From an uncultured Carboxylicivirga sp. (GTDB lineage: Bacteria > Bacteroidota > Bacteroidia > Bacteroidales > Marinilabiliaceae), in assembly GCA_947503525.1 (NCBI GenBank), contig CANNEA010000001.1:1240001-1304000 (forward strand): a stretch of 64,000 nt of DNA, read 5' to 3'. The first letter of the stretch is position 1. Every line of letters starts with the position of its first letter. The notes under the pieces are model-generated. The model did no database searches. It had not been told where the DNA came from and saw nothing but the letters and a program-made list of their open reading frames with translations. Position numbers and translations under genes: made by a program. This document shows positions 7,344 through 46,903 of the stretch, one piece after another.

Positions 7344-8350
7344 TGGGCTGAATTAAGAAGTGTTTTTGCTTTTGATACAGGAATACGTTCCTTATTGTGG
7401 TAAGCAACGATATAGCCTTTTATTCCTTGCGATTTCATGGTTGAACTCGCTTTCGAATAGCTGTTAAATTTACCAACAGAATAGCGGTACCAATCATCTC
7501 CTTTATTCATTATAACTTTTATGGATCCTGAATAAATCGATTTAATCTGTGCAGCAGACGCTTCTTTGCGATCCGCCATTATCTGAATGGTGAAATACGT
7601 TTCTGGCTCCTTTATGATTTTGGGTTCTTCCTTTATCGGAGGAGGAGTAACTGCAAGCACAGGTACTATTGCACTAACTGGTTTTTCAGCTACTTCTTCT
7701 ATTTTTTGAGGCTGTACTTCAGGAGTTATTTCTTTTTCAGTTTTCTGGACAGAAATAGTGTCAATATTGGTTTTTGCCAAGTTAACTGAAACTTCACTTG
7801 TAAGTTGATGTTTGAGAGTGTTGTAGATGTCTTCCTGAACTTGTTTATGCAGCTCAATGGCAGAGGCAGACATTATTAAAGCATCATCCAAATGTTTGTT
7901 GTCTCTTGATTTTTGGAAATTTTGCTTTGATAGAACTATCTTATCTTCATATTCAGAAAGCTGAGAGTTTATTTTCTCATTATCCATGGCTTCCTTTTTC
8001 AATTGCTCAAAGCGAATTAGGTAAACATCCGTTTTTGAAGAGACACCGACATAATATACGCGCAAGGCACGTATTGAGCTTTCAAGCTTATCTTTTTCAT
8101 TGTTTGAAAGAGGATGACTTTTTAATTCAGAGTTTTCATCGCGATCGCGATATACTATAAGAATGGAATCTAATTGAGAGAACAGGTTTTTACCTTTGGT
8201 AATTAACTGATCTCCTTTAGCTAATTGCTTTAATTCCTTGGGTGAAAAAAGCAACTCTAATGTATCCTTTGATGTTTGGGCATTACTTTTCCATGCAGAA
8301 ACTACAAATAATACAGCAATCAATAATCGGGATAACAGATTACGATTCAC
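7340..8350 (-). CDS. SPOR-like domain envelope protein, copy B
   Basis: A 336-residue protein with a signal peptide (LLIAVLFVVSA, cleavage near SNAQ), a long charged coiled-coil region (about 30-180), a Pro/Glu/Val-rich linker, and a C-terminal SPOR-like domain from FTIQIMADRK to IKGYIVAYH. SPOR domains bind denuded peptidoglycan glycans, so a periplasmic wall-binding role is likely. The start appears to be GTG at 8350: no ATG precedes the signal peptide in frame. It forms a two-gene unit with the DUF6588 protein and is a paralogue of the protein at 9515. A terminator hairpin at 8412-8452 separates it from the upstream pair. Confidence 0.75.
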   Translation of the reverse strand: MNRNLLSRLLIAVLFVVSAWKSNAQTSKDTLELLFSPKELKQLAKGDQLITKGKNLFSQLDSILIVYRDRDENSELKSHPLSNNEKDKLESSIRALRVYYVGVSSKTDVYLIRFEQLKKEAMDNEKINSQLSEYEDKIVLSKQNFQKSRDNKHLDDALIMSASAIELHKQVQEDIYNTLKHQLTSEVSVNLAKTNIDTISVQKTEKEITPEVQPQKIEEVAEKPVSAIVPVLAVTPPPIKEEPKIIKEPETYFTIQIMADRKEASAAQIKSIYSGSIKVIMNKGDDWYRYSVGKFNSYSKASSTMKSQGIKGYIVAYHNKERIPVSKAKTLLNSAQ

Positions 8351-13211: not shown

Positions 13212-14846
13212 TTATATGCCTTGCTTGTTATTTGTATAAAAGGATATCATATCCATTCTTAATTCCTGAAAGAGTTTGTGAACTTCCTCCATTCGTTTTA
13301 TGGTAAGCTCCGTTAGGTATTCAGAGGCGCTCTTGGGATCTTGTTTATATAAATTGGCGGCCTTTTGATCTACTTCGGCCTGATCATCAAAGAATGATTG
13401 TTCAAGAGGATCTCTTTTGGAATGTAGTGTTTTAACGGCATCCTGCCATCGTAAGTACATCAGATTATCCACAAAATCAACGCACCATCTTATGCTATTC
13501 TCCTGAAAATATTCGGGATCATAAATTTTATAACATTCAGCTACGTCTTGCACTCCGGTATAAATTGGCACATAGGCGCTTGTATAGGCATTATCGACAT
13601 AAAACCAATATATTCCACCAACGGCATCGGGTAACCATCCCCTTAGCTGTGTTATCATGCCATACTCACCTCTTGCCCTAGCTACATTACGTCTGCTATT
13701 AATATTCAATACTCGCCTCATTTCTTTGGTAGGAAATGGAGTTGCAAAGGCACTTTTTGTTAATTGTCCTTCTTCATCAGGATAGTACCAGGCTGGAGCA
13801 TTTTCTTTATCATAGACAGTACCTGTAAATGTAGAACGCTGAAAGGCCATAATGTCCTGTACAGAGATCTTTTGTTCCGGTTTAACCGAAAATGGGTATA
13901 TGGAAAGTGGTTCTACATATTGCGTATATTGGTTGTCGCCTTCCCATGGGGATTCAGTGAATCTATCCGGCCAATTAGTATAATTTGGTGCATATGTGGC
14001 GTAAAACTGCCAGAATCGTGAAGTGGCCCACTCTCTGGGAATTGGTGAATAAGCTTCCTGCCATATAAATGGTTTACCTGATTTAGGATTATACCAACCT
14101 CTATCAATTGCTTCTTGTTTGTAGTTTGATGATGCTTTAAAGTTATCCTTATCCTTGATATTTATTTGCTTAATAATGCTCCAGTTAGGTATAATCATGG
14201 CATGATTATCCGGTACTCGTTGGGCCGCCCAAATACATCCCGGTTTTCCTGAATCCGGCTGCCATGAATTACCAATACTAAAAACTTCCAGCACCCAAAT
14301 TTCATCAACATCAGCTATAACCAATGATTCACTTTCATCAACACATGAGGGAAGAAAACCATACTTTTCAAACAAGTGGGTAATCAATTTTAGAGCTTCT
14401 TCGGCAGTAGTGCAGCGTTGCAAAGCAAAAGCCTGAGCCTGTTCGATCGTCATTATCTGCTTGCAAATTGATCGATCAAGTTTAAGTTCATCGCGTTGGC
14501 TTAATGTGCTTTCACCTATTGCCAACTGATGCGCATTAACCTGAGGATAGGCTGTTTGAAAATAGGAATTGGTTTGCTTAACCTGAGGTATTGAGCCGAT
14601 TACTTCGCCATAATCGCCTAGTTCTCTTCCTAAATCAATCATCCCCCAAAATACATCTGCTTTACTTCCTTGGTTAAACTTTTGACCTGGCACAAGGTGT
14701 AACCTGCAATCAGGACCGGCATCGGTGTGAGAAACAATTACTGATCCATCGGCTGATGCATTTTTACCAACGGCAATTACAGTGCAAGCTTCTGAATAAG
14801 ATAAAGAAATCCCGATAAATAGGATCAGGGCATATACTATTTTCAT
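13212..14846 (-). CDS. C69 family dipeptidase, secreted
   Basis: A Sec signal peptide (MKIVYALILFIGISLSYSEA) is followed directly by CTVIAVGKNASADGSVI. In the C69/PepD family this Cys becomes the N-terminal nucleophile, so signal cleavage just before Cys21 would activate the enzyme (inferred). The frame opens upstream at 14921, but the ATG at 14846 sits at the signal peptide and avoids overlap with the upstream gene. It is the last gene of the operon running from 20566 and would release amino acids from dipeptides in the periplasm. Length 544 residues, normal for secreted members. The start could also be ATG 14852, two codons earlier. Confidence 0.87.
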   Translation of the reverse strand: MKIVYALILFIGISLSYSEACTVIAVGKNASADGSVIVSHTDAGPDCRLHLVPGQKFNQGSKADVFWGMIDLGRELGDYGEVIGSIPQVKQTNSYFQTAYPQVNAHQLAIGESTLSQRDELKLDRSICKQIMTIEQAQAFALQRCTTAEEALKLITHLFEKYGFLPSCVDESESLVIADVDEIWVLEVFSIGNSWQPDSGKPGCIWAAQRVPDNHAMIIPNWSIIKQINIKDKDNFKASSNYKQEAIDRGWYNPKSGKPFIWQEAYSPIPREWATSRFWQFYATYAPNYTNWPDRFTESPWEGDNQYTQYVEPLSIYPFSVKPEQKISVQDIMAFQRSTFTGTVYDKENAPAWYYPDEEGQLTKSAFATPFPTKEMRRVLNINSRRNVARARGEYGMITQLRGWLPDAVGGIYWFYVDNAYTSAYVPIYTGVQDVAECYKIYDPEYFQENSIRWCVDFVDNLMYLRWQDAVKTLHSKRDPLEQSFFDDQAEVDQKAANLYKQDPKSASEYLTELTIKRMEEVHKLFQELRMDMISFYTNNKQGI

Positions 14847-38954: not shown

Positions 38955-38986
38955 GCCTCTGATTTTAATTGTCAGGGGCTTTTTTT
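38955..38986 (+). terminator. Terminator of the exporter operon
   Basis: GCCTCTGA and TCAGGGGC form an 8-bp stem (one G-T pair) with a 9-nt loop, followed by seven T. Confidence 0.75.
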
Positions 38987-39152: not shown

Positions 39153-39184
39153 TTGATATAATGAGAAATATCTCATTATATTTG
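39153..39184 (+). promoter_or_regulatory. Promoter of the DUF134/ORP-like cluster
   Basis: A -33 TTG (39153-39155), a 21-base spacer and the exact -7 element TATATTTG (39177-39184) precede the DUF134 start by about 40 bases. The two dyads at 39162-39175 and 39188-39201 lie within the spacer and at the predicted start point. Confidence 0.65.
39162..39175. promoter_or_regulatory. Operator dyad 1 of the DUF134 promoter
   Basis: TGAGAAATATCTCA has perfect 5-bp inverted arms (TGAGA/TCTCA) around AATA. It lies between the -33 and -7 elements. An identical copy follows 26 bases downstream. Confidence 0.6.
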
Positions 39185-39187
39185 TAG

Positions 39188-39201
39188 TGAGAAATATCTC
39201 A
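39188..39201. promoter_or_regulatory. Operator dyad 2 of the DUF134 promoter
   Basis: A second identical TGAGAAATATCTCA, just after the -7 element and over the predicted transcription start. Two copies around the promoter suggest cooperative repression. Confidence 0.6.
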
Positions 39202-39222
39202 TAAACGTATTTAATTCCCATT

Positions 39223-39633
39223 ATGCCAAGACGTAGAAGATTAAGAAGGGTGGTTGCTCCACCGGGATTTAAGGGTTTTAAACCATATGGTGTGTTTAAG
39301 TCATCAGAAGATAAGGTTGAACTTTTGTATGAAGAATATGAAGCGATTAAGCTTTCGGATTACGATGGACTAAACCATGAAAATGCAGCCAGCTTGATGG
39401 GTGTTTCTCGCCCAACATTTGCCCGGATATATGAGAGTGCCAGAAAAAAAATTGCACAAGCTCTGGTTGAGAATAAGGAAATAATGTCGGTGTATGGAAA
39501 TGCATTACTGGATAAGCATTGGTTTTTATGTAAGGATTGTCATGCCCGGTTTACAATTCCCCAATCATTAACTCAACAAATATGTGCCTTATGCTCCTCT
39601 AAAAATATTGAACCTTTAAAAGAGATTGTATGA
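39223..39633 (+). CDS. DUF134 family DNA-binding protein
   Basis: A 136-residue protein of the DUF134 family: PRRRRLRRVVAPPGFKGFKP at the start is the family signature, followed by the LLYEEYEAIKLSDYDGLNHENAASLMGVSRPTFARIYESARKKIA block with a sigma-70-like helix-turn-helix, and a C-terminal CxxC pair (CKDCHARF and CALC) that probably binds zinc. DUF134 proteins are predicted regulators found beside NifX/NifB-type and Mrp-type genes. It overlaps the next gene by 4 bases (ATGA). Its own promoter carries two dyads, so autoregulation is likely. Confidence 0.85.
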   Translation: MPRRRRLRRVVAPPGFKGFKPYGVFKSSEDKVELLYEEYEAIKLSDYDGLNHENAASLMGVSRPTFARIYESARKKIAQALVENKEIMSVYGNALLDKHWFLCKDCHARFTIPQSLTQQICALCSSKNIEPLKEIV

Positions 39634-39947
39634 AAACATTAATATCAGCATCAGAGAATAAAGTGGAAGCCTTGTTTGATAAACGTTTTGGCAGAGCTGC
39701 ATGGTTTTGTATCTACGATGAAATAAGCGGAGCTATTGAGTTTGTTGAAAACGAAAATGTTAATGCCAGTAATGGAGCAGGTTCAAAAGCTGCTGAAACA
39801 GTTATAGCACATGATGTTAAAAAAGTAATATCTGGTGATTTTGGTCCAAAAGCCAAGGAGTTGTTAGAAAAGTTCGAAATACAGATGGTTATCATTCAGG
39901 ATGATAGCTTGACGATTGAACGCATTATTACAAAACTTAGAAAATAA
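39630..39947 (+). CDS. NifX/NifB-like dinitrogenase iron-molybdenum cofactor-binding protein 1
   Basis: A 105-residue single-domain protein of the NifX/NifB/Mo-nitrogenase cofactor-binding family, the fold of the Desulfovibrio orange protein (ORP). ASENKVEALFDKRFGRAAWFCIYDE and GSKAAETVIAHDVKKVISGDFGPKAKELL are the family blocks. Members bind metal-sulfur clusters such as FeMo-co precursors or a Mo-Cu cluster. There is one Cys (WFCIYD) and no C-terminal Cys/His tail, unlike the second copy. It overlaps DUF134 by 4 bases and is followed 4 bases later by the small Gly-rich gene. Confidence 0.87.
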   Translation: MKTLISASENKVEALFDKRFGRAAWFCIYDEISGAIEFVENENVNASNGAGSKAAETVIAHDVKKVISGDFGPKAKELLEKFEIQMVIIQDDSLTIERIITKLRK

Positions 39948-39951
39948 AATT

Positions 39952-40131
39952 ATGCCGGGATTTGATAAGACTGGCCCTGAAGGACAAGGATCTCGAACAG
40001 GCCGAATGATGGGTAAATGTAATTCAAAAAACACTTCCTGTGATGGAAGTGGGCTAAGGAATGGAAGTGGAGGTCATGGATTCGGCAACAGAGAGAATAG
40101 CGGACGTGGCAAGGGTGCACAAGGTAAATAA
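39952..40131 (+). CDS. Small Gly-rich DUF5320-like protein
   Basis: A 59-residue, low-complexity protein. It begins MPGFDKTGPEGQGSRTGR, the pattern of the DUF5320 family (MP-D-TGP-G-G-TGR), then continues with Gly, Asn and Ser-rich sequence and two Cys (GKCNSKNTSC). A reading frame extends upstream to 39916 inside the NifX gene, but the ATG at 39952 starts the family motif. Such proteins accompany NifX-like and Mrp-type genes in anaerobes; function unknown. It lies between the two NifX-like genes in the same operon. Confidence 0.7.
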   Translation: MPGFDKTGPEGQGSRTGRMMGKCNSKNTSCDGSGLRNGSGGHGFGNRENSGRGKGAQGK

Positions 40132-40226
40132 ATGCTAGCTGGGGCTCTGTTTTTATTTGCTTTAGGATAAGTCAAACAGGACACATGGTTTAATGATTTG
40201 ATTTTTCAATATTAAAATAATTAAAA

Positions 40227-40595
40227 ATGACGAAAAAAATTGCAGTACCTGTTAATGAAGCAGGAATATTGGATGCACATTTTGGACATTGCAAGTTTTT
40301 TGCACTGCTACATACCAATGGAAAACAAATTGTGTCTGAAGAAAAGGTTATACCACCTCCTCATGAACCTGGACTGTTGCCACGTTGGTTAGGTGAGAAA
40401 GGCGTAACAGATATCATTGCTGGTGGTATGGGGCAGAAAGCCATACAATTATTTACGCAAAATGGTGTTAATGCTTTTGTTGGTGCTCCAAAGCGTAGCG
40501 CAGTTGAGTTGGTAGAAGGGCATTTAAATGGAGAGTTAAGCTTTAATTCAAATTATTGCAATCATGATACTAACCACAGTTGCACTGGACATTAA
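40227..40595 (+). CDS. NifX/NifB-like cofactor-binding protein 2 with Cys/His tail
   Basis: A 122-residue NifX/NifB-family domain: KIAVPVNEAGILDAHFGHCKFFALLHTN, then a Pro-rich loop (IPPPHEPGLLPRWLGEKGVTDIIAGGMGQKAIQLF) and VNAFVGAPKRSAVELVEG. The C-terminal tail NYCNHDTNHSCTGH adds two Cys and three His, a likely metal site lacking in the first copy. Members bind metal-sulfur cofactors; by resemblance to the ORP of Desulfovibrio this may bind a molybdenum-copper-sulfur cluster, but that is inference. It starts 95 bases after the DUF5320-like gene. Confidence 0.87.
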   Translation: MTKKIAVPVNEAGILDAHFGHCKFFALLHTNGKQIVSEEKVIPPPHEPGLLPRWLGEKGVTDIIAGGMGQKAIQLFTQNGVNAFVGAPKRSAVELVEGHLNGELSFNSNYCNHDTNHSCTGH

Positions 40596-40736
40596 CTGCC
40601 CTCTTAGGATTTTATCCAATGCCTTTCTAAAAGCAAATAAATTACTGAATAAGTCATTTCCTTTTTATTCGGCTGATAATTAAATCTAGTTAATGGTCGG
40701 ATAATTTGAATGTATCACAAATAATTAAGGTTATAA

Positions 40737-41615
40737 ATGTCATATAAAATAGCCATCGCAAGCGGTAAGGGTGGAACTGGTAAAACAACGGTTGCTATTA
40801 ATCTTTTAGTATCATGGCAAAGGGTTATTGGAGAGCATATTGAGTTGGTGGATTGTGATGTGGAAGAACCTAATGCCATGATCTTTTTTCCAGAAGCACA
40901 AAAAGAAAAGGAAGAAAGTATTTTACAACTTATCCCGGAAATCAATCGTGATTCATGTACCTTTTGTAAGGCATGCGTTGAGTATTGTGAGTTTAATGCC
41001 ATTTCACTTATTCCTCATGTAAGGTTTGCCGAAGTTAATCAGAGTCTTTGTCACTCATGTGGCGCTTGTTTAGTTGCCTGTAAGCACAATGCCATTAATG
41101 AAATTCCATATCCAATAGGCAAGGTTTCAAGCTATAAAACGAATAATGGATACTTCATAAAAGAAGGGCGCTTAAAAATTGGTTCGCTTATGCAAACCAT
41201 GCTTATTAAAGAACTTAAAAAAAGGGTAAGCGAGCATTCTAATATTATACTCTATGATGCGCCTCCAGGTACTAGTTGCCCCGTGGTTGAAACAATCAGC
41301 GATACAGACTATGTAATTATTGTTGCCGAACCAACCCTGTTTGGATTATATGATTTAAAACTGATGATAAAATTAACCAGGGAAGTTAATCTTCCTTTTG
41401 GTGTGATTATTAATAAATCAGGTTTAGGGGATCGTCAGGTATATAATTTTCTCAGAGAGGAAGGTATTCAGTTATTAGGTGAAATCCCTTTTAGCAAAGA
41501 ATATGCTGGATTATATGCAAAAGGAGATATTGTGGATAAGGCATCTGAAGGTATCCAAGAGGTGTATAAAAATGTTGTCGCTAAACTTTCAAATGAGATA
41601 ATGCAGTATGATTGA
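40737..41615 (+). CDS. MinD/Mrp-like ATPase with two 4Fe-4S motifs, copy 1
   Basis: A 292-residue P-loop ATPase of the nucleotide-binding MinD/Mrp superfamily. The deviant Walker A is SGKGGTGKT (9-17), with the later switch VDCDVEEPN and DAPPGTSCP. Between residues 74 and 115 is an inserted ferredoxin-like part with two CxxCxxCxxxC motifs (Cys74/77/80/84 and Cys105/108/111/115), so it should bind two 4Fe-4S clusters. Members are thought to load or move metal clusters for the ORP-type complex (inferred). It overlaps the next gene by 8 bases. It is clearly distinct from a ParA partition protein. Confidence 0.9.
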   Translation: MSYKIAIASGKGGTGKTTVAINLLVSWQRVIGEHIELVDCDVEEPNAMIFFPEAQKEKEESILQLIPEINRDSCTFCKACVEYCEFNAISLIPHVRFAEVNQSLCHSCGACLVACKHNAINEIPYPIGKVSSYKTNNGYFIKEGRLKIGSLMQTMLIKELKKRVSEHSNIILYDAPPGTSCPVVETISDTDYVIIVAEPTLFGLYDLKLMIKLTREVNLPFGVIINKSGLGDRQVYNFLREEGIQLLGEIPFSKEYAGLYAKGDIVDKASEGIQEVYKNVVAKLSNEIMQYD

Positions 41616-42477
41616 GATAACGGTTTTAAGTGGCAAAGGTGGAACGGGTAAAACCAGTATTACGGCAGCCCTGGCTTCAATAGCTGAGAGTGCAGTCTAC
41701 TGCGATAATGATGTAGATGCTGCTGACCTTCATTTGTTATTTAAACCAAAGGTGAAGGAAAAATACCTCTTCGAAAGTGGATGGAACGTAATAATTAATT
41801 CGGATACATGTAAACTATGCAACATATGCATAAAGCATTGCAGATTCGACGCCATTTATTCAGATAAAAATGGAGGGTTACAGATTAACCCTCATAAATG
41901 TGAAGGGTGTAGACTTTGTGAACGTATCTGCCCGGAAAGTGCCATTAGTTCAGTCAAAAATAATAATAATCAATGGTTTGTGTCTGATTCTCGTTTTGGT
42001 ACATTGGTTCATGCAGAAATGGGGCCTGGGGAGGAAAACTCAGGAAAATTGGTAAGTCAGGTGCGCAAAAAAGCAAAAGAAATTGCCTTATCTGAAAACA
42101 AAAAATTTGTCATTAATGATGGCCCTCCCGGAATTGGTTGCACCACCATTGCATCCCTTACTGGCACCAATAGGGTGCTATTGGTTATTGAACCCACTAA
42201 GTCAGCTTTGCATGATGCTTTTCGACTGCTTGAATTAATTCATTCTTTTAAAATTAAGGCTTTTGCAATAATCAATAAATATGACATTAATATGGAGCTT
42301 GTTCGGAAAATAGAATTATTTCTGAATGAAAAGAATATACCTATACTGGCTTATATCCCATTTGATGAATGCATGGTTGAATCCATGACTAAAGGACAAA
42401 CCATTGTTGAGCATCAAGTGAATTCTACATCTTCCGAATTGATAAAGAAGGCATGGGAGAAGATAAGCATTTTATAA
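41608..42477 (+). CDS. MinD/Mrp-like ATPase with two 4Fe-4S motifs, copy 2
   Basis: A 289-residue paralogue of the preceding gene. Walker A is SGKGGTGKT (8-16), followed by CDNDVDAADL and NDGPPGIGCT. The two ferredoxin motifs are Cys68/71/74/78 and Cys98/101/104/108. The two copies overlap by 8 bases and are probably made in equal amounts, suggesting a heterodimer. Paired cluster-carrying ATPases of this sort are a hallmark of ORP-type loci. The sequences differ enough that the duplication is old. Confidence 0.9.
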   Translation: MIEITVLSGKGGTGKTSITAALASIAESAVYCDNDVDAADLHLLFKPKVKEKYLFESGWNVIINSDTCKLCNICIKHCRFDAIYSDKNGGLQINPHKCEGCRLCERICPESAISSVKNNNNQWFVSDSRFGTLVHAEMGPGEENSGKLVSQVRKKAKEIALSENKKFVINDGPPGIGCTTIASLTGTNRVLLVIEPTKSALHDAFRLLELIHSFKIKAFAIINKYDINMELVRKIELFLNEKNIPILAYIPFDECMVESMTKGQTIVEHQVNSTSSELIKKAWEKISIL

Positions 42478-42498
42478 AATTATTTAAAATGGGATAAC

Positions 42499-43236
42499 AT
42501 GAAAATCAACAAAGTAAAACTTAATCTATTATTAGATATATTAATGTTTATCCATATGTTGCCGATAATCGGAATCGGTTTTCTCATTAAGTCTGTTCTC
42601 GTGCCGGGATACGAACGAAATAGTATTTATGGCCATGATGTTGAACTTTATTTTTGTGGAATTGATCGTCATCAATGGGGAACAATTCATTTTCTATTCA
42701 GCTTGGTACTGATTTTTTTATTAGGTCTACACATTGTTTTTCACTGGAAGCAAGTTGTTTGCATTTTTAATAAAATGCTACCATTACGACTTGTACGTGT
42801 TGTAATAGCATTAGTATTATTGATGTTAACAATCGTCATTGGTATACTCCCCCTGATTGTTACTCCACAAATTAAGGAAAATGTCTCTCATAATGCCCAT
42901 GCTAATGAATTACCGGGAGTTTCTCATACGTATGAGCCTAAGCAAATTAAAAAGCAGTTCCATAATATCGAATCAACGAAAGATGGTTCGGCTGGTAATA
43001 CACATGGCGGACATGCCAAAATAGAAATATATGGCTACATGACCTTAAATGAGCTTGCAAAGAAGTACAAGGTAAATGCAAAGGCTTTAGCATTAAGTAT
43101 TAATGTTCCACAAGGAAATATGGATGAACGCCTAGGTAGGTTAAGGAGGAAGTATGGTTTTGAATTAAGTGATCTGAAAAGATATTTAGAAAACAAATTG
43201 ACTGAAAATATTGCAAATGAAGAAGATGTAAAATAG
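42499..43236 (+). CDS. DUF4405 cytochrome-b-like membrane protein
   Basis: A 245-residue protein with three membrane helices (about 10-33, 63-84, 98-122). His residues in or beside the membrane (His19, His58, His64, His78, His82) match the DUF4405 heme-b-type pattern, so electron transfer is possible. The C-terminal soluble part (TLNELAKKYKVNAKALALSI ... RLRRKYGFELSDLKRYLENK, about 182-234) is a small helical domain that also follows NapH-type ferredoxins and other redox membrane proteins. It lies 21 bases after the second ATPase gene, so it may connect that system to the quinone pool (inferred). Not a standard gene of ORP loci that I know of. Confidence 0.75.
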   Translation: MKINKVKLNLLLDILMFIHMLPIIGIGFLIKSVLVPGYERNSIYGHDVELYFCGIDRHQWGTIHFLFSLVLIFLLGLHIVFHWKQVVCIFNKMLPLRLVRVVIALVLLMLTIVIGILPLIVTPQIKENVSHNAHANELPGVSHTYEPKQIKKQFHNIESTKDGSAGNTHGGHAKIEIYGYMTLNELAKKYKVNAKALALSINVPQGNMDERLGRLRRKYGFELSDLKRYLENKLTENIANEEDVK

Positions 43237-43354
43237 CACTAGTCAGGAGGTTTAATTTCAATTGAGATCAGCTGAATTGACTTAAACCCGTTGGACTTCA
43301 TCCTTAGTCGAGTTGTTTAGTTTTTGTTTTAACTAGAATTGATTTACAGAAGAT

Positions 43355-43780
43355 ATGATAACAGACAAAATGCAAATACGACCCCGTTACGGGGAAGTTG
43401 ATCAAATGGGCTATGTGTACCATGCAAACTATGTTACGTATTGCCATCAGGCTCGAACTGAACTGCTTCGTAAGATCGGCCTGCACGACAGTTTACTTGA
43501 ATCTGAAGGCATCATGCTTCCTGTAATTTCATTTGATATTCGGTATAAAAAGCCAGCACATTACGATGAAATATTAACCATCACAACAAGGGTTAGAGAG
43601 TTACCTGATGTGCGGTTTAATTTTGAATTTCAAATTACAAACAGCTTTGGGGAATTGCTTTCAACAGTAAAATCAACGGTCGTATTCGCCGATAGTGTAA
43701 ATCGGAATCCTGTGCGAATACCTCAATTTGTTAAAGTTGCCATTCAAGAACATTTCTATAAAATAAAGAAATGCATCTGA
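43355..43780 (+). CDS. YbgC/FcbC-like acyl-CoA thioesterase, hot-dog fold
   Basis: A 141-residue single hot-dog domain. RYGEVDQMGYVYHANYVTYCHQARTELL contains the active-site Asp16 and the YHANY motif (4HBT/YbgC class), and SFDIRYKKPAHYDEILTI is the second block. It hydrolyses acyl-CoA thioesters, probably short or medium chain, in the cytoplasm as a tetramer. It starts 118 bases after the DUF4405 gene, after a gap that may hold its own promoter. Its last 10 bases overlap the start of the deleted MBL-fold remnant. Its relation to the metal-cluster genes is unknown. Confidence 0.87.
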   Translation: MITDKMQIRPRYGEVDQMGYVYHANYVTYCHQARTELLRKIGLHDSLLESEGIMLPVISFDIRYKKPAHYDEILTITTRVRELPDVRFNFEFQITNSFGELLSTVKSTVVFADSVNRNPVRIPQFVKVAIQEHFYKIKKCI

Positions 43781-43923
43781 CAGTTTTAACTGATCAATTT
43801 ATGAAGAATATTAAAGTCAGGCAAGTTTACCCTTCGCATTGTACGGAACAGGATGCCATCTGTGCTTTTAAAAATGAGTTGAAGACCTTTCAGGTGAAAA
43901 CCGGTCAAAGAATAAAAATATGA
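43771..43923 (+). pseudogene. Internally deleted MBL-fold metallohydrolase remnant
   Basis: A 50-codon frame reads MHLTVLTD, the typical start of MBL-fold proteins of the dihydropterin-synthase-like group, and then, after QFMKN, IKVRQVYPSHCTEQDAICAFKNEL..., the typical end (HCT followed by an AxxxF(K/L) helix). The central 200 or so residues with the HxHxDH metal site are absent, so an in-frame internal deletion is inferred. The frame starts within the thioesterase stop region and ends on the ATGA overlap with TrmO, so it sits in the operon just as a functional gene would. It may still be translated as a short peptide. MBL-fold proteins commonly occur beside DUF134/NifX/TrmO genes, which supports the reading. 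Confidence 0.6.
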
Positions 43924-44411
43924 ATCGAAAAGAAATTAGTATTCAGCCTATTGGAGTAATACATACTCCACACCATGATATAAGCAATATGCCTATTCAG
44001 CCAATTGCTGCAGTGGGAATAAAAGGGTATATCGAGCTTTTTCCCGAATATGTTGATGGATTAACAGATTTGCAAGGTTTTTCACACATTACCCTGGTGT
44101 ATCACTTTCATAAAATAGAAGGATACCAACTGATGGTGAAGCCTTTTATGGATAATGTCGAACATGGCATATTTGCATGCAAGGCCCCCAAACGACCCAA
44201 TGCAATTGGTATTTCTACAGTAAAGCTCTTGAAGGTTGAAAACAATTTAGTGCATATAGAAATGGTTGATATGTTAGACCAAACACCATTAATTGATATA
44301 AAACCATTCTTTCCCAAGTACGATAATAGACTTGATACAAAATCAGGATGGTTGGATAAAGCCACATCAATATCTGCTGATAGAATGCGCTCAGATAATC
44401 GTTTCAAATAA
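43920..44411 (+). CDS. TrmO family tRNA methyltransferase (TsaA domain)
   Basis: A 163-residue protein. IGVIHTPHHDISNMPIQP, LQGFSHITLVYHFHKIEG, KRPNAIGISTVKLLKVE and DQTPLIDIKPFFPKYDN are the TrmO/TsaA (UPF0066) blocks in order. TrmO methylates N6 of threonylcarbamoyladenosine at tRNA position 37 with SAM. Short, TrmO-like proteins also occur in metal-cluster loci, where their role may differ, so no gene name is given. The ATG overlaps the stop of the MBL-fold remnant by 4 bases. Its substrate in this locus is not proven. Confidence 0.85.
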   Translation: MNRKEISIQPIGVIHTPHHDISNMPIQPIAAVGIKGYIELFPEYVDGLTDLQGFSHITLVYHFHKIEGYQLMVKPFMDNVEHGIFACKAPKRPNAIGISTVKLLKVENNLVHIEMVDMLDQTPLIDIKPFFPKYDNRLDTKSGWLDKATSISADRMRSDNRFK

Positions 44412-44433
44412 AAATAATTTAAAGCATAGCAGA

Positions 44434-46122
44434 ATGGCAAAAAAAATTATAGTAATCGGTGGTTCAGCAGCAGGCCCTAAAACTGCAGCAAGAGCCAGAA
44501 GAATGGATGAAACTGCAGAAATAACCATGTTTCAAAAAAGTCCTGACTTATCAATGGCATCCTGTGGTTATCCATATTTTGTTGGTGGATTTTTTGATGA
44601 TAGAAATAAGTTATTATGCACGCCAACAGGAGTTGTTCGTGATCCTAAATTTTACTGGAATGCCAAAGGAATAGTGGCAAAAGTAAATACCGAAGTCACA
44701 AAAATCGACCGAAAGAAGAAAGAAATTGAGTTTGTGGATTTAACGAACGGTGACAAAGGCTGCCAGGCATATGATAAGTTGATACTCACAACCGGTGCCA
44801 CAGCTAATATGCCGCCGGTTCCAGGAATAGAACTTGAAGGTATCACAACTCTTCAGACGATGCAAGATGCAGATTACCTTCGAAAAATCAGGGACGAAGG
44901 TAAAATAAAAAAAGCAGTTGTTATTGGTGGAGGCTTAATTGGAATTGAAACTTTGGAAGCCTTGCATTTAGCTGGCATTGAATTAACCATGATTGAGCTT
45001 TTGCCACAGTTGCTTACTTTTTTGGATTGGAAAATGGCGAAATTGGTTGAAAATTACCTTAAGTCAAAAGCCAATGTGATTACTCAAAACGGGGTGGCTG
45101 AATTCCTTGGAGAAAACAATAAATTGGTTGGAGTAAAACTGCAAAACGGGACTGAGATTCCATGCGAATTGGCGGTAGTAGCTATTGGCGTAAAGCCGAA
45201 TATAAAGCTTGCCAAAGAGGCCGGATTACATATTGGAGGTTTAGGAGGTATTATTGTGAATGAACATATGCAAACCTCCGATCCTGATATATATGCAGCG
45301 GGGGATTGTTGTGAAATTAAAAATACCATAACGGGCAGAAATGTACTTGCTCCATATGGCGATTTGGCTAATCTCGAAGGTAGGGTTGTTGGAGAGAACG
45401 TTATCAAAGGAAATGTGGCAGTCTTTCCCGGAACTCAACAAACTGGTATTTGCAAGTTGTTCGACTATGGTATTGGCATAACAGGTTTATCAGAAGCAAA
45501 AGCAAAGGAAGCTGGTATTGATTACGTTAAGGTGATAAATGCCAGTCCTGATAAGCCCGGTTTTATGAATGGGAAACTGTTAATAAGCAAGTTGCTGGCA
45601 GAAAAGGAATCGGGTAAGTTATTAGGCGCACAGTGCATCGGTTTGGGTGATGTAAGCAAACAGCTAGCCATTTGGGCTACGGCTTTAAAGGGTGGTTTAC
45701 GTATTGATGATATGGTTAATGCAGATCTACCATATGCCCCGCCATTTTCTTTGGCAATCGATCATAGCATAGCAACAGCACATATTTTGCAAAATAAAAT
45801 ACATGGAATTTTTGAAGGGATATCATCATTGGAATTAAAAGAAAAATTAGCTAATAAAGATAATGTTTTTCTGCTTGATGCCCGTGGAGCCGATGAGTAT
45901 GAACAAACGCGCCTTGGAATAGGAGAGACTCTTATTCCCATTGGAATGCTTCGCAAAAGATTAAATGAACTCCCTGCAGATAAAAACCAGGAGATCATAA
46001 CTTTTTGCAAAATATCCTTAAGAGGCTATGAGGCGGCCGTGCTGTTAAAGGCGCATGGTTACACCAATGTAAAGGTACTGGAAGGAGGCATAATGGCCTG
46101 GCCTTTTGCAAAAGAAAAGTAA
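44434..46122 (+). CDS. CoA-disulfide reductase-like flavoprotein fused to rhodanese domain
   Basis: A 562-residue fusion. Residues 1-450 form a pyridine-nucleotide-disulfide oxidoreductase: FAD motif VIGGSAAGPK, the single redox-active Cys44 in SMASCGYPYFVGG, NAD(P) motif VVIGGGLIGIE and DIYAAGDCCE. The last 100 residues are a rhodanese domain (VFLLDARGADEY and the active loop FCKISLRG, Cys525). Such CoADR-RHD enzymes reduce CoA disulfide, CoA persulfide or polysulfide. The frame opens at 44332, but ATG 44434 starts the FAD domain. It lies 22 bases after TrmO. A sulfur or redox supply function for the locus is inferred. Confidence 0.87.
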   Translation: MAKKIIVIGGSAAGPKTAARARRMDETAEITMFQKSPDLSMASCGYPYFVGGFFDDRNKLLCTPTGVVRDPKFYWNAKGIVAKVNTEVTKIDRKKKEIEFVDLTNGDKGCQAYDKLILTTGATANMPPVPGIELEGITTLQTMQDADYLRKIRDEGKIKKAVVIGGGLIGIETLEALHLAGIELTMIELLPQLLTFLDWKMAKLVENYLKSKANVITQNGVAEFLGENNKLVGVKLQNGTEIPCELAVVAIGVKPNIKLAKEAGLHIGGLGGIIVNEHMQTSDPDIYAAGDCCEIKNTITGRNVLAPYGDLANLEGRVVGENVIKGNVAVFPGTQQTGICKLFDYGIGITGLSEAKAKEAGIDYVKVINASPDKPGFMNGKLLISKLLAEKESGKLLGAQCIGLGDVSKQLAIWATALKGGLRIDDMVNADLPYAPPFSLAIDHSIATAHILQNKIHGIFEGISSLELKEKLANKDNVFLLDARGADEYEQTRLGIGETLIPIGMLRKRLNELPADKNQEIITFCKISLRGYEAAVLLKAHGYTNVKVLEGGIMAWPFAKEK

Positions 46123-46192
46123 AATGAAGCACAAATTAAAGGCTTTATACTTCCAGATATAGAGTTTAATATTAATCTTAAAACACTAAGAA

Positions 46193-46903
46193 ATGGAAAA
46201 TCAAGAACAACAAGTAGTGAGTATGCCACGAATTGGCGATCCTGCACCAGAATTTAAAGCTGTAACAACCCAGGGTGACATTAATTTTCCAGCTGATTAC
46301 AAAGGAAAGTGGTCAATCCTATTTAGCCATCCTGCTGATTTTACGCCGGTATGTACATCCGAATTCATGACTTTTGCCCATTTAGAGAAGCAATTCAATG
46401 CGGCTAATTGTGAATTGATTGGTTTATCTATAGATGGTTTATATAGTCATATTGCCTGGCTTCGAACGATTAAGGAAAAGATTGAGTATAAAGGCATGAA
46501 GGATATTGAGGTGACATTCCCCTTGATTGAAGACATTAAAATGGATGTGGCCAAAAAATATGGAATGATTCAACCTAATGAGGACTCAACAAAGGCTGTT
46601 CGAGCGGTGTTTTTTATCGATCCCAAGGGAATTATTCGTACCATAATATACTATCCACTTAGTTTAGGTAGAAATTTCGATGAACTTTACCGTGTTCTTC
46701 TAGCATTAAAAACTGCTGATGAGTTTGGAATTGCCACTCCAGCCGATTGGCGTCCGGGTGATGATGTGATTATTGGGCCTGCAGGTTCATGTGGAACAGC
46801 ACAAGAAAGAATGGATGATAGTAATATTGACTGTAAAGACTGGTTTTTTTGTACTAAAAAGTTGGATAAGGACGAAGTGTTAAGTAAAGTTTTAAGCAAA
46901 TAA
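46193..46903 (+). CDS. Prx6-type peroxiredoxin with C-terminal Cys cluster
   Basis: A 236-residue peroxiredoxin of the Prx6/archaeal AhpC-like group. The peroxidatic Cys is Cys54 in FTPVCTSEF, after FSHPADF. The C-terminal extension has GSCGTAQERM, DSNIDCKDW and FFCTK, three more Cys, as in archaeal-type members that use resolving cysteines there. It reduces H2O2 or organic peroxides in the cytoplasm using an external thiol donor. It follows the CoADR-rhodanese gene by 70 bases. It probably protects the oxygen-sensitive clusters of the preceding proteins (inferred). Confidence 0.9.
   Translation: MENQEQQVVSMPRIGDPAPEFKAVTTQGDINFPADYKGKWSILFSHPADFTPVCTSEFMTFAHLEKQFNAANCELIGLSIDGLYSHIAWLRTIKEKIEYKGMKDIEVTFPLIEDIKMDVAKKYGMIQPNEDSTKAVRAVFFIDPKGIIRTIIYYPLSLGRNFDELYRVLLALKTADEFGIATPADWRPGDDVIIGPAGSCGTAQERMDDSNIDCKDWFFCTKKLDKDEVLSKVLSK

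Follow-up and report, generated by a model that had tools for sequence, protein, structure and literature searches.

The window analysed here is a 64-kb stretch of DNA from an uncultured Carboxylicivirga sp. (contig CANNEA010000001.1), and the system in question is a set of eleven plus-strand genes at 39223-46903 that follow one another with short gaps as one directon. We hold with moderate confidence that these genes form a DUF134-controlled operon similar to the orange protein (ORP) complex of Desulfovibrio, which in this anaerobe would assemble an inorganic metal-sulfide cluster, carry it, and hand it over, the cluster being probably linked to molybdenum. The support for this reading is computational and comes from homology of the core proteins, a conserved gene neighbourhood, a common operator, and a link between TrmO and molybdate genes. 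ORP-type clusters are present in many anaerobes; new here are the operator with a partial regulon and the TrmO-molybdate connection. The gene inventory of the initial annotation (a DUF134 regulator, two NifX-like proteins, a DUF5320 protein, two 4Fe-4S ATPases, and a set of extension genes) is borne out by Pfam and NCBIfam searches.

The locus opens with the DUF134 regulator (39223..39633, Pfam 79 bits), which carries two C-terminal CxxC motifs and is the proposed operator binder. NifX1 (39630..39947) is an ORP-like Nitro_FeMo-Co protein with an RFGR motif, whereas NifX2 (40227..40595) is a DiNase protein with an HFGHC motif and a Cys/His-rich C-terminus; the two score 58 and 53 bits, respectively, in the Nitro_FeMo-Co family of Pfam. 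The closest solved structure to NifX1, a homologue of Orp8, is D. gigas ORP (2wfb, E 1.2e-8). NifX2 matches the structures 1t3v/1o13 and PH0822 and resembles the C-terminal part of MrpORP: it scores 111.8 bits against the MrpORP model NF041136, covering only positions 264-365 of 365 (the DiNase part), and its HFGHC and PPPHEPG motifs resemble those given for MrpORP in an excerpt of PMC6345978. ATPase 1 (40737..41615) and its paralogue ATPase 2 (41608..42477) are MinD/NifH-type P-loop proteins of the same layout and 29% identity, in which a MinD/ParA domain carries two inserted 4Fe-4S motifs (two Fer4 stretches); the description of Orp3 and Orp4 in the same excerpt fits both.

The comparison with orange protein loci made in the initial annotation therefore holds by homology for the core, in which NifX1 pairs with 2wfb, NifX2 with the MrpORP-type DiNase domain, and the ATPases with Orp3/Orp4, but it does not extend to the architecture of the Desulfovibrio complex, whose members are Orp3, Orp4, Orp5, Orp8, and Orp9/MrpORP. 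There is no Mrp-DiNase fusion here; in place of two divergent sigma-54 operons we find one directon headed by DUF134 and a proposed operator; and DUF4405, YbgC, TrmO, CoADR-rhodanese, and peroxiredoxin genes have been added. Two defining features of that complex were looked for and not found, and we therefore call the locus ORP-like rather than an ORP complex.

Across 43 sequences from many phyla, all eight cluster cysteines of ATPase 1 are strictly conserved. A further cysteine, Cys181, lies seven residues past Asp174 (Cys178 in ATPase 2), and a cysteine at this distance from the Asp of a D-x-PPG-like motif is found in 197 of the 200 ATPases of the surveyed loci, the remaining three being short fragments, whereas Mrp proteins have Asp at that position in 52 of 57 cases (four lack the motif and one has Cys). 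The NifH encoded in the same genome has Cys at an equal register (DVLGDVVC), and we take the register cysteine of the ATPases to align with a NifH cluster ligand, although the second NifH cluster cysteine has no visible counterpart in them. The predicted structure of ATPase 1 (pLDDT 93.8) matches MinD (1hyq, the best match), FleN, Cfd1, HypB, protochlorophyllide reductase, NifH, and ApbC.

The surroundings of the ATPase pair were surveyed in 107 loci, comprising 78 of 80 from an ATPase search (two duplicates were dropped) and 29 that were fetched, with close relatives retained. Within 5 kb of the pair and on its strand lie genes for NifX (99/107), DUF5320 (50/107), Mrp (45/107), DUF134 (42/107), DUF89 (22/107; an ARMT1-like damage-control phosphatase, for example at L031 7411-8253), and TrmO (8/107). 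The eight TrmO loci belong to Bacteroidota (4), Desulfobacterota (2), Planctomycetota (1), and Chloroflexota (1); a frequency of one copy per 2500 genes would predict 0.3. Compared with the rest of the same loci, NifX, DUF134, DUF5320, Mrp, DUF89, DUF4405, TrmO, and ferredoxins are enriched near the pair (p ≤0.011), and MBL, CoADR, YbgC, peroxiredoxin (Prx), ModD, MGL, peptide deformylase, and CGGC genes are not (p ≥0.08). This same-locus comparison is a weak control, since some cluster genes lie farther than 5 kb away and wider families are caught by the models for MBL and CoADR, and whole-genome placement was therefore used as well. Mrp and NifX are fused in four loci (L098, L102, L114, L137), NifX and DUF5320 in one (L072), and DUF134 and NifX in one (L132), which ties these pieces together. 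The core module is spread over many bacterial and archaeal phyla; class-wide, the ATPase pair is uncommon (4 of 295 drawn genomes, including the genome studied here).

Genes recurring within 6 kb of the pair, named from one or two representatives by family search (patatin and sigma-54 by reading), encode radical SAM proteins (16 loci), a NifU-like scaffold (11, one of them Pfam-confirmed), a methyltransferase (9), a patatin-like protein (8, Bacteroidota only), sigma-54-type regulators (8), an extra NifX-like protein (8), DUF1847 (6), the heavy-metal chelation family DUF364 (5), and CobO (4). Most of them are genes that accompany a module assembling metal clusters; in other phyla, too, the pair repeatedly has NifU-like, Mrp, and radical SAM genes next to it. 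This bears on whether the locus encodes a cell-division or positioning complex, as once proposed for the ORP proteins of Desulfovibrio (PMC6345978, excerpt). The MinD match of ATPase 1 would suit such a role, but the identified recurrent neighbours are metal, sulfur, and electron-transfer genes with no division gene among them, and we consider it highly improbable.

The small DUF5320 protein between the two NifX genes (39952..40131, 59 aa, Pfam 33 bits) has a pI of 10.2 and 29% Gly; reading of the frame makes ATG 39952, rather than TTG 39916, its most likely start. The pI exceeds 9 in 61 of 64 DUF5320 entries of the set, two of the 64 coming from duplicate loci. A NifX domain accompanied by a cationic, glycine-rich element recalls IssA of Pyrococcus furiosus, which serves thioferrate storage and whose tail is cationic, glycine-rich, and also aromatic-rich (PMC5524996, excerpt). 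DUF5320 is a possible stand-alone counterpart of that tail, and an iron-sulfide store of the IssA kind, in which NifX and DUF5320 hold thioferrate and the ATPases release it, would suit both the composition and the L072 fusion. It is nonetheless unlikely: domain and tail sit on two proteins in the window, DUF5320 is not aromatic-rich here, and ATPases are present. To our knowledge, no role of such ATPases in IssA storage has been described, which we count against a store.

The control region is a further line of evidence. The palindrome TAATGAGAATATTCTCATTA occurs twice around the promoter, as operator 1, TAATGAGAAATATCTCATTA (39159..39178, 25.1 bits), and operator 2, TAGTGAGAAATATCTCATAA (39185..39204, 22.8 bits). 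Between them lies TATATTTG (39177..39184, +), which fits the consensus of a Bacteroidota-type -7 box. The exact dyad TGAGA-N4-TCTCA is found in the window only at 39162-39175 and 39188-39201, on the two sides of this box, a layout that suggests a repressor site. The box is supported only by its location between the operators because, taken alone, it occurs at chance level window-wide; the Bacteroidota -33/-7 pattern searched as a single string is likewise at chance level in the window. A sigma-54 promoter was rejected, its one-mismatch pattern occurring only at 14773, 24977, and 42138, at chance level and away from the locus promoter.

In 23 of the 34 Bacteroidota loci whose DUF134 lies on the cluster strand, the operator precedes this gene, and TGAGA-N4-TCTCA lies upstream of it in 19 of 34 non-redundant Bacteroidota loci; in ten shuffled sets, the most frequent dyad was found in no more than 3 or 4. 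Among the remaining 11 Bacteroidota loci, eight show related palindromes by eye, such as TGAACATATGTTCA (not L027, L055, or L070). In 11 loci of other phyla, related palindromes stand before DUF134 in L095, L096, L119, L126, L131, and L132, and no clear one does in L083, L084, L112, L115, and L141. A 20-base matrix was then built from 33 exact sites, taken from anywhere in the window and cluster loci, and scanned over the window, 1.52 Mb of cluster loci, and 530 kb from 40 other loci that had not contributed to it. At 14 bits or more, 35 of 36 sites in the cluster loci stand directly before DUF134, and in the other loci all eight sites of at least 16 bits stand before operons of this gene set. 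Four weaker matches there (10-15 bits, two before nifV) fall short of the 6.6 expected from shuffled DNA. From the site position and its presence before DUF134 in several phyla, we infer that DUF134 binds the operator. The exceptional site of the cluster loci, in L063 (724-2443), lies ahead of a gene for a 534 aa protein that has eight CxxCH haem motifs and may be another regulon member.

The operator predicts a DUF134 site and brings further genes under the same control. It stands 58 bases ahead of DUF5320-CobO-CoADR-rhodanese in G015 (L149, 31.2 bits), before a NifX-DUF4405-RibA-TrmO-DUF5320-FeoB-like operon in G028 (L143), a genome without the ATPase pair, before DUF5320-DUF4405-RibA-MBL in G032 (L165), before NifX2-DUF4405 in G002 (L167), and before the core itself in G364 (L183). 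Since it precedes three of five DUF4405 operons outside the cluster, DUF4405 is likely a member of the DUF134 regulon; it also precedes one of four CoADR genes and one of 19 TrmO genes there, and CoADR-rhodanese and TrmO likely belong to the regulon in some genomes. In single relatives, CobO, RibA, and the FeoB-like gene come under the operator in the same way.

Two smaller arrangements carry such palindromes too. On a plasmid of the gammaproteobacterium Dongshaea marina, typed mobilizable, TGGCATATGCTCA stands before DUF134-NifX-PaaI thioesterase-DUF364 and before an opposite TrmO-TauE pair (L172 4937-8477), and nowhere else in the 10.5 kb examined. No ATPase gene lies in that stretch, which represents the system in compact form. 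The genome studied here has a second DUF134-NifX-YbgC triad on contig 5 (L060 7426-8559; DUF134 and YbgC assigned by similarity), with the palindrome TGAGCATATGCTTA at 7419.

The initial annotation had extended the core beyond 42477 by five genes, an extension that would be accidental if it were not conserved in relatives. The first of the five encodes a DUF4405 membrane protein (42499..43236, Pfam 43 bits), a predicted haem b cytochrome. The YbgC-type acyl-CoA thioesterase (43355..43780; TIGR00051, 96 against a cut-off of 68.7) and the TrmO family protein (43920..44411; TIGR00104, 127.8 against 93.25), whose lineage is also present in molybdate operons, come next. A CoADR-like disulfide/persulfide reductase fused to rhodanese (44434..46122), with CGYP and CKISLR motifs, matches pyridine-nucleotide reductase and rhodanese in Pfam and scores 353.9 with TIGR03385, below the cut-off of 578.8; its most likely start, again by frame reading, is ATG 44434 rather than TTG 44332. 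Persulfide reductase activity is known from CoADR-rhodanese fusions. A peroxiredoxin (46193..46903; NCBIfam 326 against 211) ends the set and is its weakest member.

We searched the Carboxylicivirga genome and 59 relatives with each locus protein. The ATPase pair is present in 27 of the 59 relatives, not counting the genome itself, and the arrangement of the locus genes is not chance; G029 is included in the 27, though only the second ATPase is seen there, at a contig edge. Distances "within 5 kb" include a further 1.5 kb allowed for the pair itself, the identity thresholds were picked after the tables had been viewed and exclude lower-scoring copies, and the expected values are indicative only, overstating certainty because the relatives are not independent. 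At 68% identity or more, CoADR-rhodanese has 13 copies in 11 of the 27 pair-bearing relatives, eight within 5 kb of the pair (0.05 expected) and 11 within 20 kb (0.16 expected), more copies beside the pair than any other extension gene. DUF4405 follows with 7 of 11 copies, in nine genomes, within 5 kb (0.03 expected), and YbgC at 50% identity or more with 6 of 7 copies, in six genomes (0.03 expected); weaker YbgC homologues also adjoin the pair in G014, G029, G039, and G058. TrmO has 2 of 17 copies within 5 kb (0.05 expected). For CoADR-rhodanese, DUF4405, and YbgC the extension is thus conserved far above chance, and for TrmO, rarer near the pair but found there in four phyla, it is probably not accidental.

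Gene order argues against mere inheritance of the neighbourhood, as it varies: DUF4405 lies ahead of ATPase 1 in L045 and L048-L050 but behind ATPase 2 in the window, L031, L032, and L036. The last of these, from another genus of the same family, has the series NifX2, DUF89, both ATPases, peptide deformylase, Mrp, and TrmO, continued without a break by DUF4405, YbgC, an MBL-fold protein, and CoADR-rhodanese. Because the extra genes recur together in relatives, some of which also share the DNA switch, most of them seem to be part of the core kit. DUF4405 itself has conserved histidine pairs like those of the DUF4405 haem b cytochromes and ferrosome FezC (PMC11334425, excerpt): in RHQWGTIH at 57 and LHIVFHW at 77, the histidines are invariant in all four aligned sequences. 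Its predicted structure is of low quality (pLDDT 65). Unlike those cytochromes, it has an extra C-terminal domain (43031-43233), common to two of three aligned relatives and without a Pfam match.

Peroxiredoxin behaves differently. At 69% identity or more, one of 13 copies lies within 5 kb and three of 13 within 20 kb of the pair, so that its link to the ATPases is weak. The rank of CoADR-rhodanese among the extension genes, together with a Fur/PerR-type gene and a peroxiredoxin at the end of the G006 locus, would fit an operon for sulfide, persulfide, or peroxide stress in which the metal proteins are repair factors. We think this quite unlikely, given the weak peroxiredoxin linkage and a conserved core made up of metal-cluster proteins rather than antioxidant enzymes.

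TrmO bears on the identity of the metal. Searching 71 family genomes, we find 21 with a TrmO match at E ≤1e-25 and read all 22 places as far as their contigs extend. Nine adjoin modA, modB, modC, modE, or mop genes, and in two of the nine nif genes immediately precede; three lie in an ORP-like cluster (the window, G022, and G364) and one in the G028 operon. The mod genes were named by NCBIfam in L157, L158, and L161, where the ModE matches fall below the cut-off, and by similarity to these in the other six loci. In a tree of 36 TrmO sequences, the window copy groups with mod, nif-mod, and three other-context copies (support 97/93), although the tree has some long, weak branches. The remaining cluster copies are placed in separate branches, so that the association of TrmO with the cluster probably arose several times. 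TrmO also tracks nif, being present in 8 of 11 nif-bearing relatives and 3 of 48 others (p 1e-5). In the same-genus relative G006, the locus runs on for about 20 kb with modD, modA, FeoA, a FeoB-like gene, CobO, a Fur-type regulator, CoADR, and Prx, and G002, also of the same genus, has the genes in the same order, read across the point where its only contig starts. TrmO is annotated as a methyltransferase of t6A37 in tRNA; its occurrence both in molybdate operons and in this cluster suggests that it may serve molybdenum metabolism in these bacteria.

Dedicated assembly or repair of Fe-S clusters without molybdenum, in which the ATPases and NifX proteins move ordinary clusters to clients as proposed for MrpORP, is the likeliest alternative, and we regard it as a real but minor possibility. 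Transfer of Fe-S clusters is an activity of MrpORP, whose DiNase domain contained a 3Fe-4S cluster (PMC6345978, excerpt). Of the 107 loci, 45 have Mrp/NBP35 near the pair and 11 a NifU-like scaffold, a FeoB-like gene ends the operator-controlled G028 operon, and the ATPase 1 model resembles MinD, Cfd1, ApbC, and NifH. NifX1, however, is closest to ORP, of a family that carries Mo and Cu (PMC6345978, excerpt), TrmO occurs in molybdate operons, and ModA and ModD accompany the locus in same-genus relatives.

Maturation of nitrogenase offers a further comparison. The locus shares with NifX/NifB/NifH the NifX domain, the NifH-type ATPase fold, and a cysteine at the NifH register, and a nif operon exists elsewhere in the genome, but it lies on another contig, and 19 of the 27 pair-bearing relatives lack nifD. 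This operon, on contig 3 (L061, L152), encodes H, two GlnB, D, K, E, N, B, a 2Fe-2S ferredoxin, and V (read from open reading frames (ORFs), with nifD confirmed by family search), so that the organism is probably a nitrogen fixer.

Several observations weigh against a molybdenum-linked operon under DUF134 control. The ATPase pair is present in 8 of 11 nif genomes and 19 of 48 others, a link that is not significant (p 0.09), and modD lies near the pair in three loci only (L031, L032, L062) without enrichment (3 near, 1 far, p 0.63). At nine of the 22 TrmO places, no Mo or cluster genes are adjacent, and no TrmO adjoins the modABC genes of the Carboxylicivirga genome itself (G000 contig 2). Of 106 plasmid TrmO records, ten were read, mostly from halophilic archaea (H1, H2, H3, H4, H6, H7, H8, H9, H11, and H27): only H8 is a mod operon, H9 is a DUF134/NifX locus, and the remaining eight are neither, though H6 has an ABC transporter and nikR alongside and H7 is close to feoAB. 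The operator is absent before CoADR in G019, G020, and G055, before DUF4405 in G001 and the second G006 copy, before 18 of 19 TrmO genes outside the cluster, and from L142 and L151, the downstream parts of the G006 and G002 loci. The genome has no short Mrp carrier, its one strong Mrp match being a 373 aa frame. Finally, the relatives in which the neighbourhood recurs share ancestry.

Taking both sides together, we still favour the ORP-like, metal-sulfide reading, and we expect that it would operate as follows. DUF134 would bind both palindromes and probably repress the operon until a metal or sulfide signal meets its CxxC domain. The cluster would be held by NifX1, as in ORP, and by NifX2, as in the MrpORP DiNase domain, and may be wrapped or stored by the cationic, glycine-rich DUF5320. 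Sequence and model suggest that the ATPases work as a pair in which the ferredoxin inserts deliver electrons, while ATP hydrolysis would drive cluster transfer through the cysteine at the NifH-ligand register. CoADR-rhodanese may supply or remove persulfide or sulfide, and the DUF4405 cytochrome may tie the system to the membrane; the thioesterase and TrmO would be further partners. The metal is most likely molybdenum, together with copper or iron. More tentatively, DUF134 might regulate a metal-sulfide cofactor regulon of anaerobes in several phyla through TGA-rCATATGy-TCA palindromes. In this bacterium, the product might be a Mo-sulfide heterometal cluster, made for its own sake or for some client that is not nitrogenase, with the TrmO-like protein handling Mo rather than methylating tRNA. 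In the openly licensed literature, we found no work on an operator of DUF134, on what DUF5320 does, or on the occurrence of TrmO within molybdate operons.

Upstream, a terminator-like hairpin on the plus strand (38955..38979, a consensus match only) separates the locus from export genes, and an Rfam search of the window returned nothing at curated thresholds. The host genome measures 6.56 Mb; by ATPase 1, its nearest named relatives are Plebeiobacterium marinum (67%, L062) and Marinilabiliaceae/Carboxylicivirga records. An extra peptide deformylase, as at L031 9988-10602, recurs in 7 of the 107 loci. The short Mrp is split into two adjacent ORFs in L031 (G006) and L032 (G002) and is a single ORF in L062, and in G006 and G002, YbgC is represented only by an ORF of 80-83 aa located further downstream.

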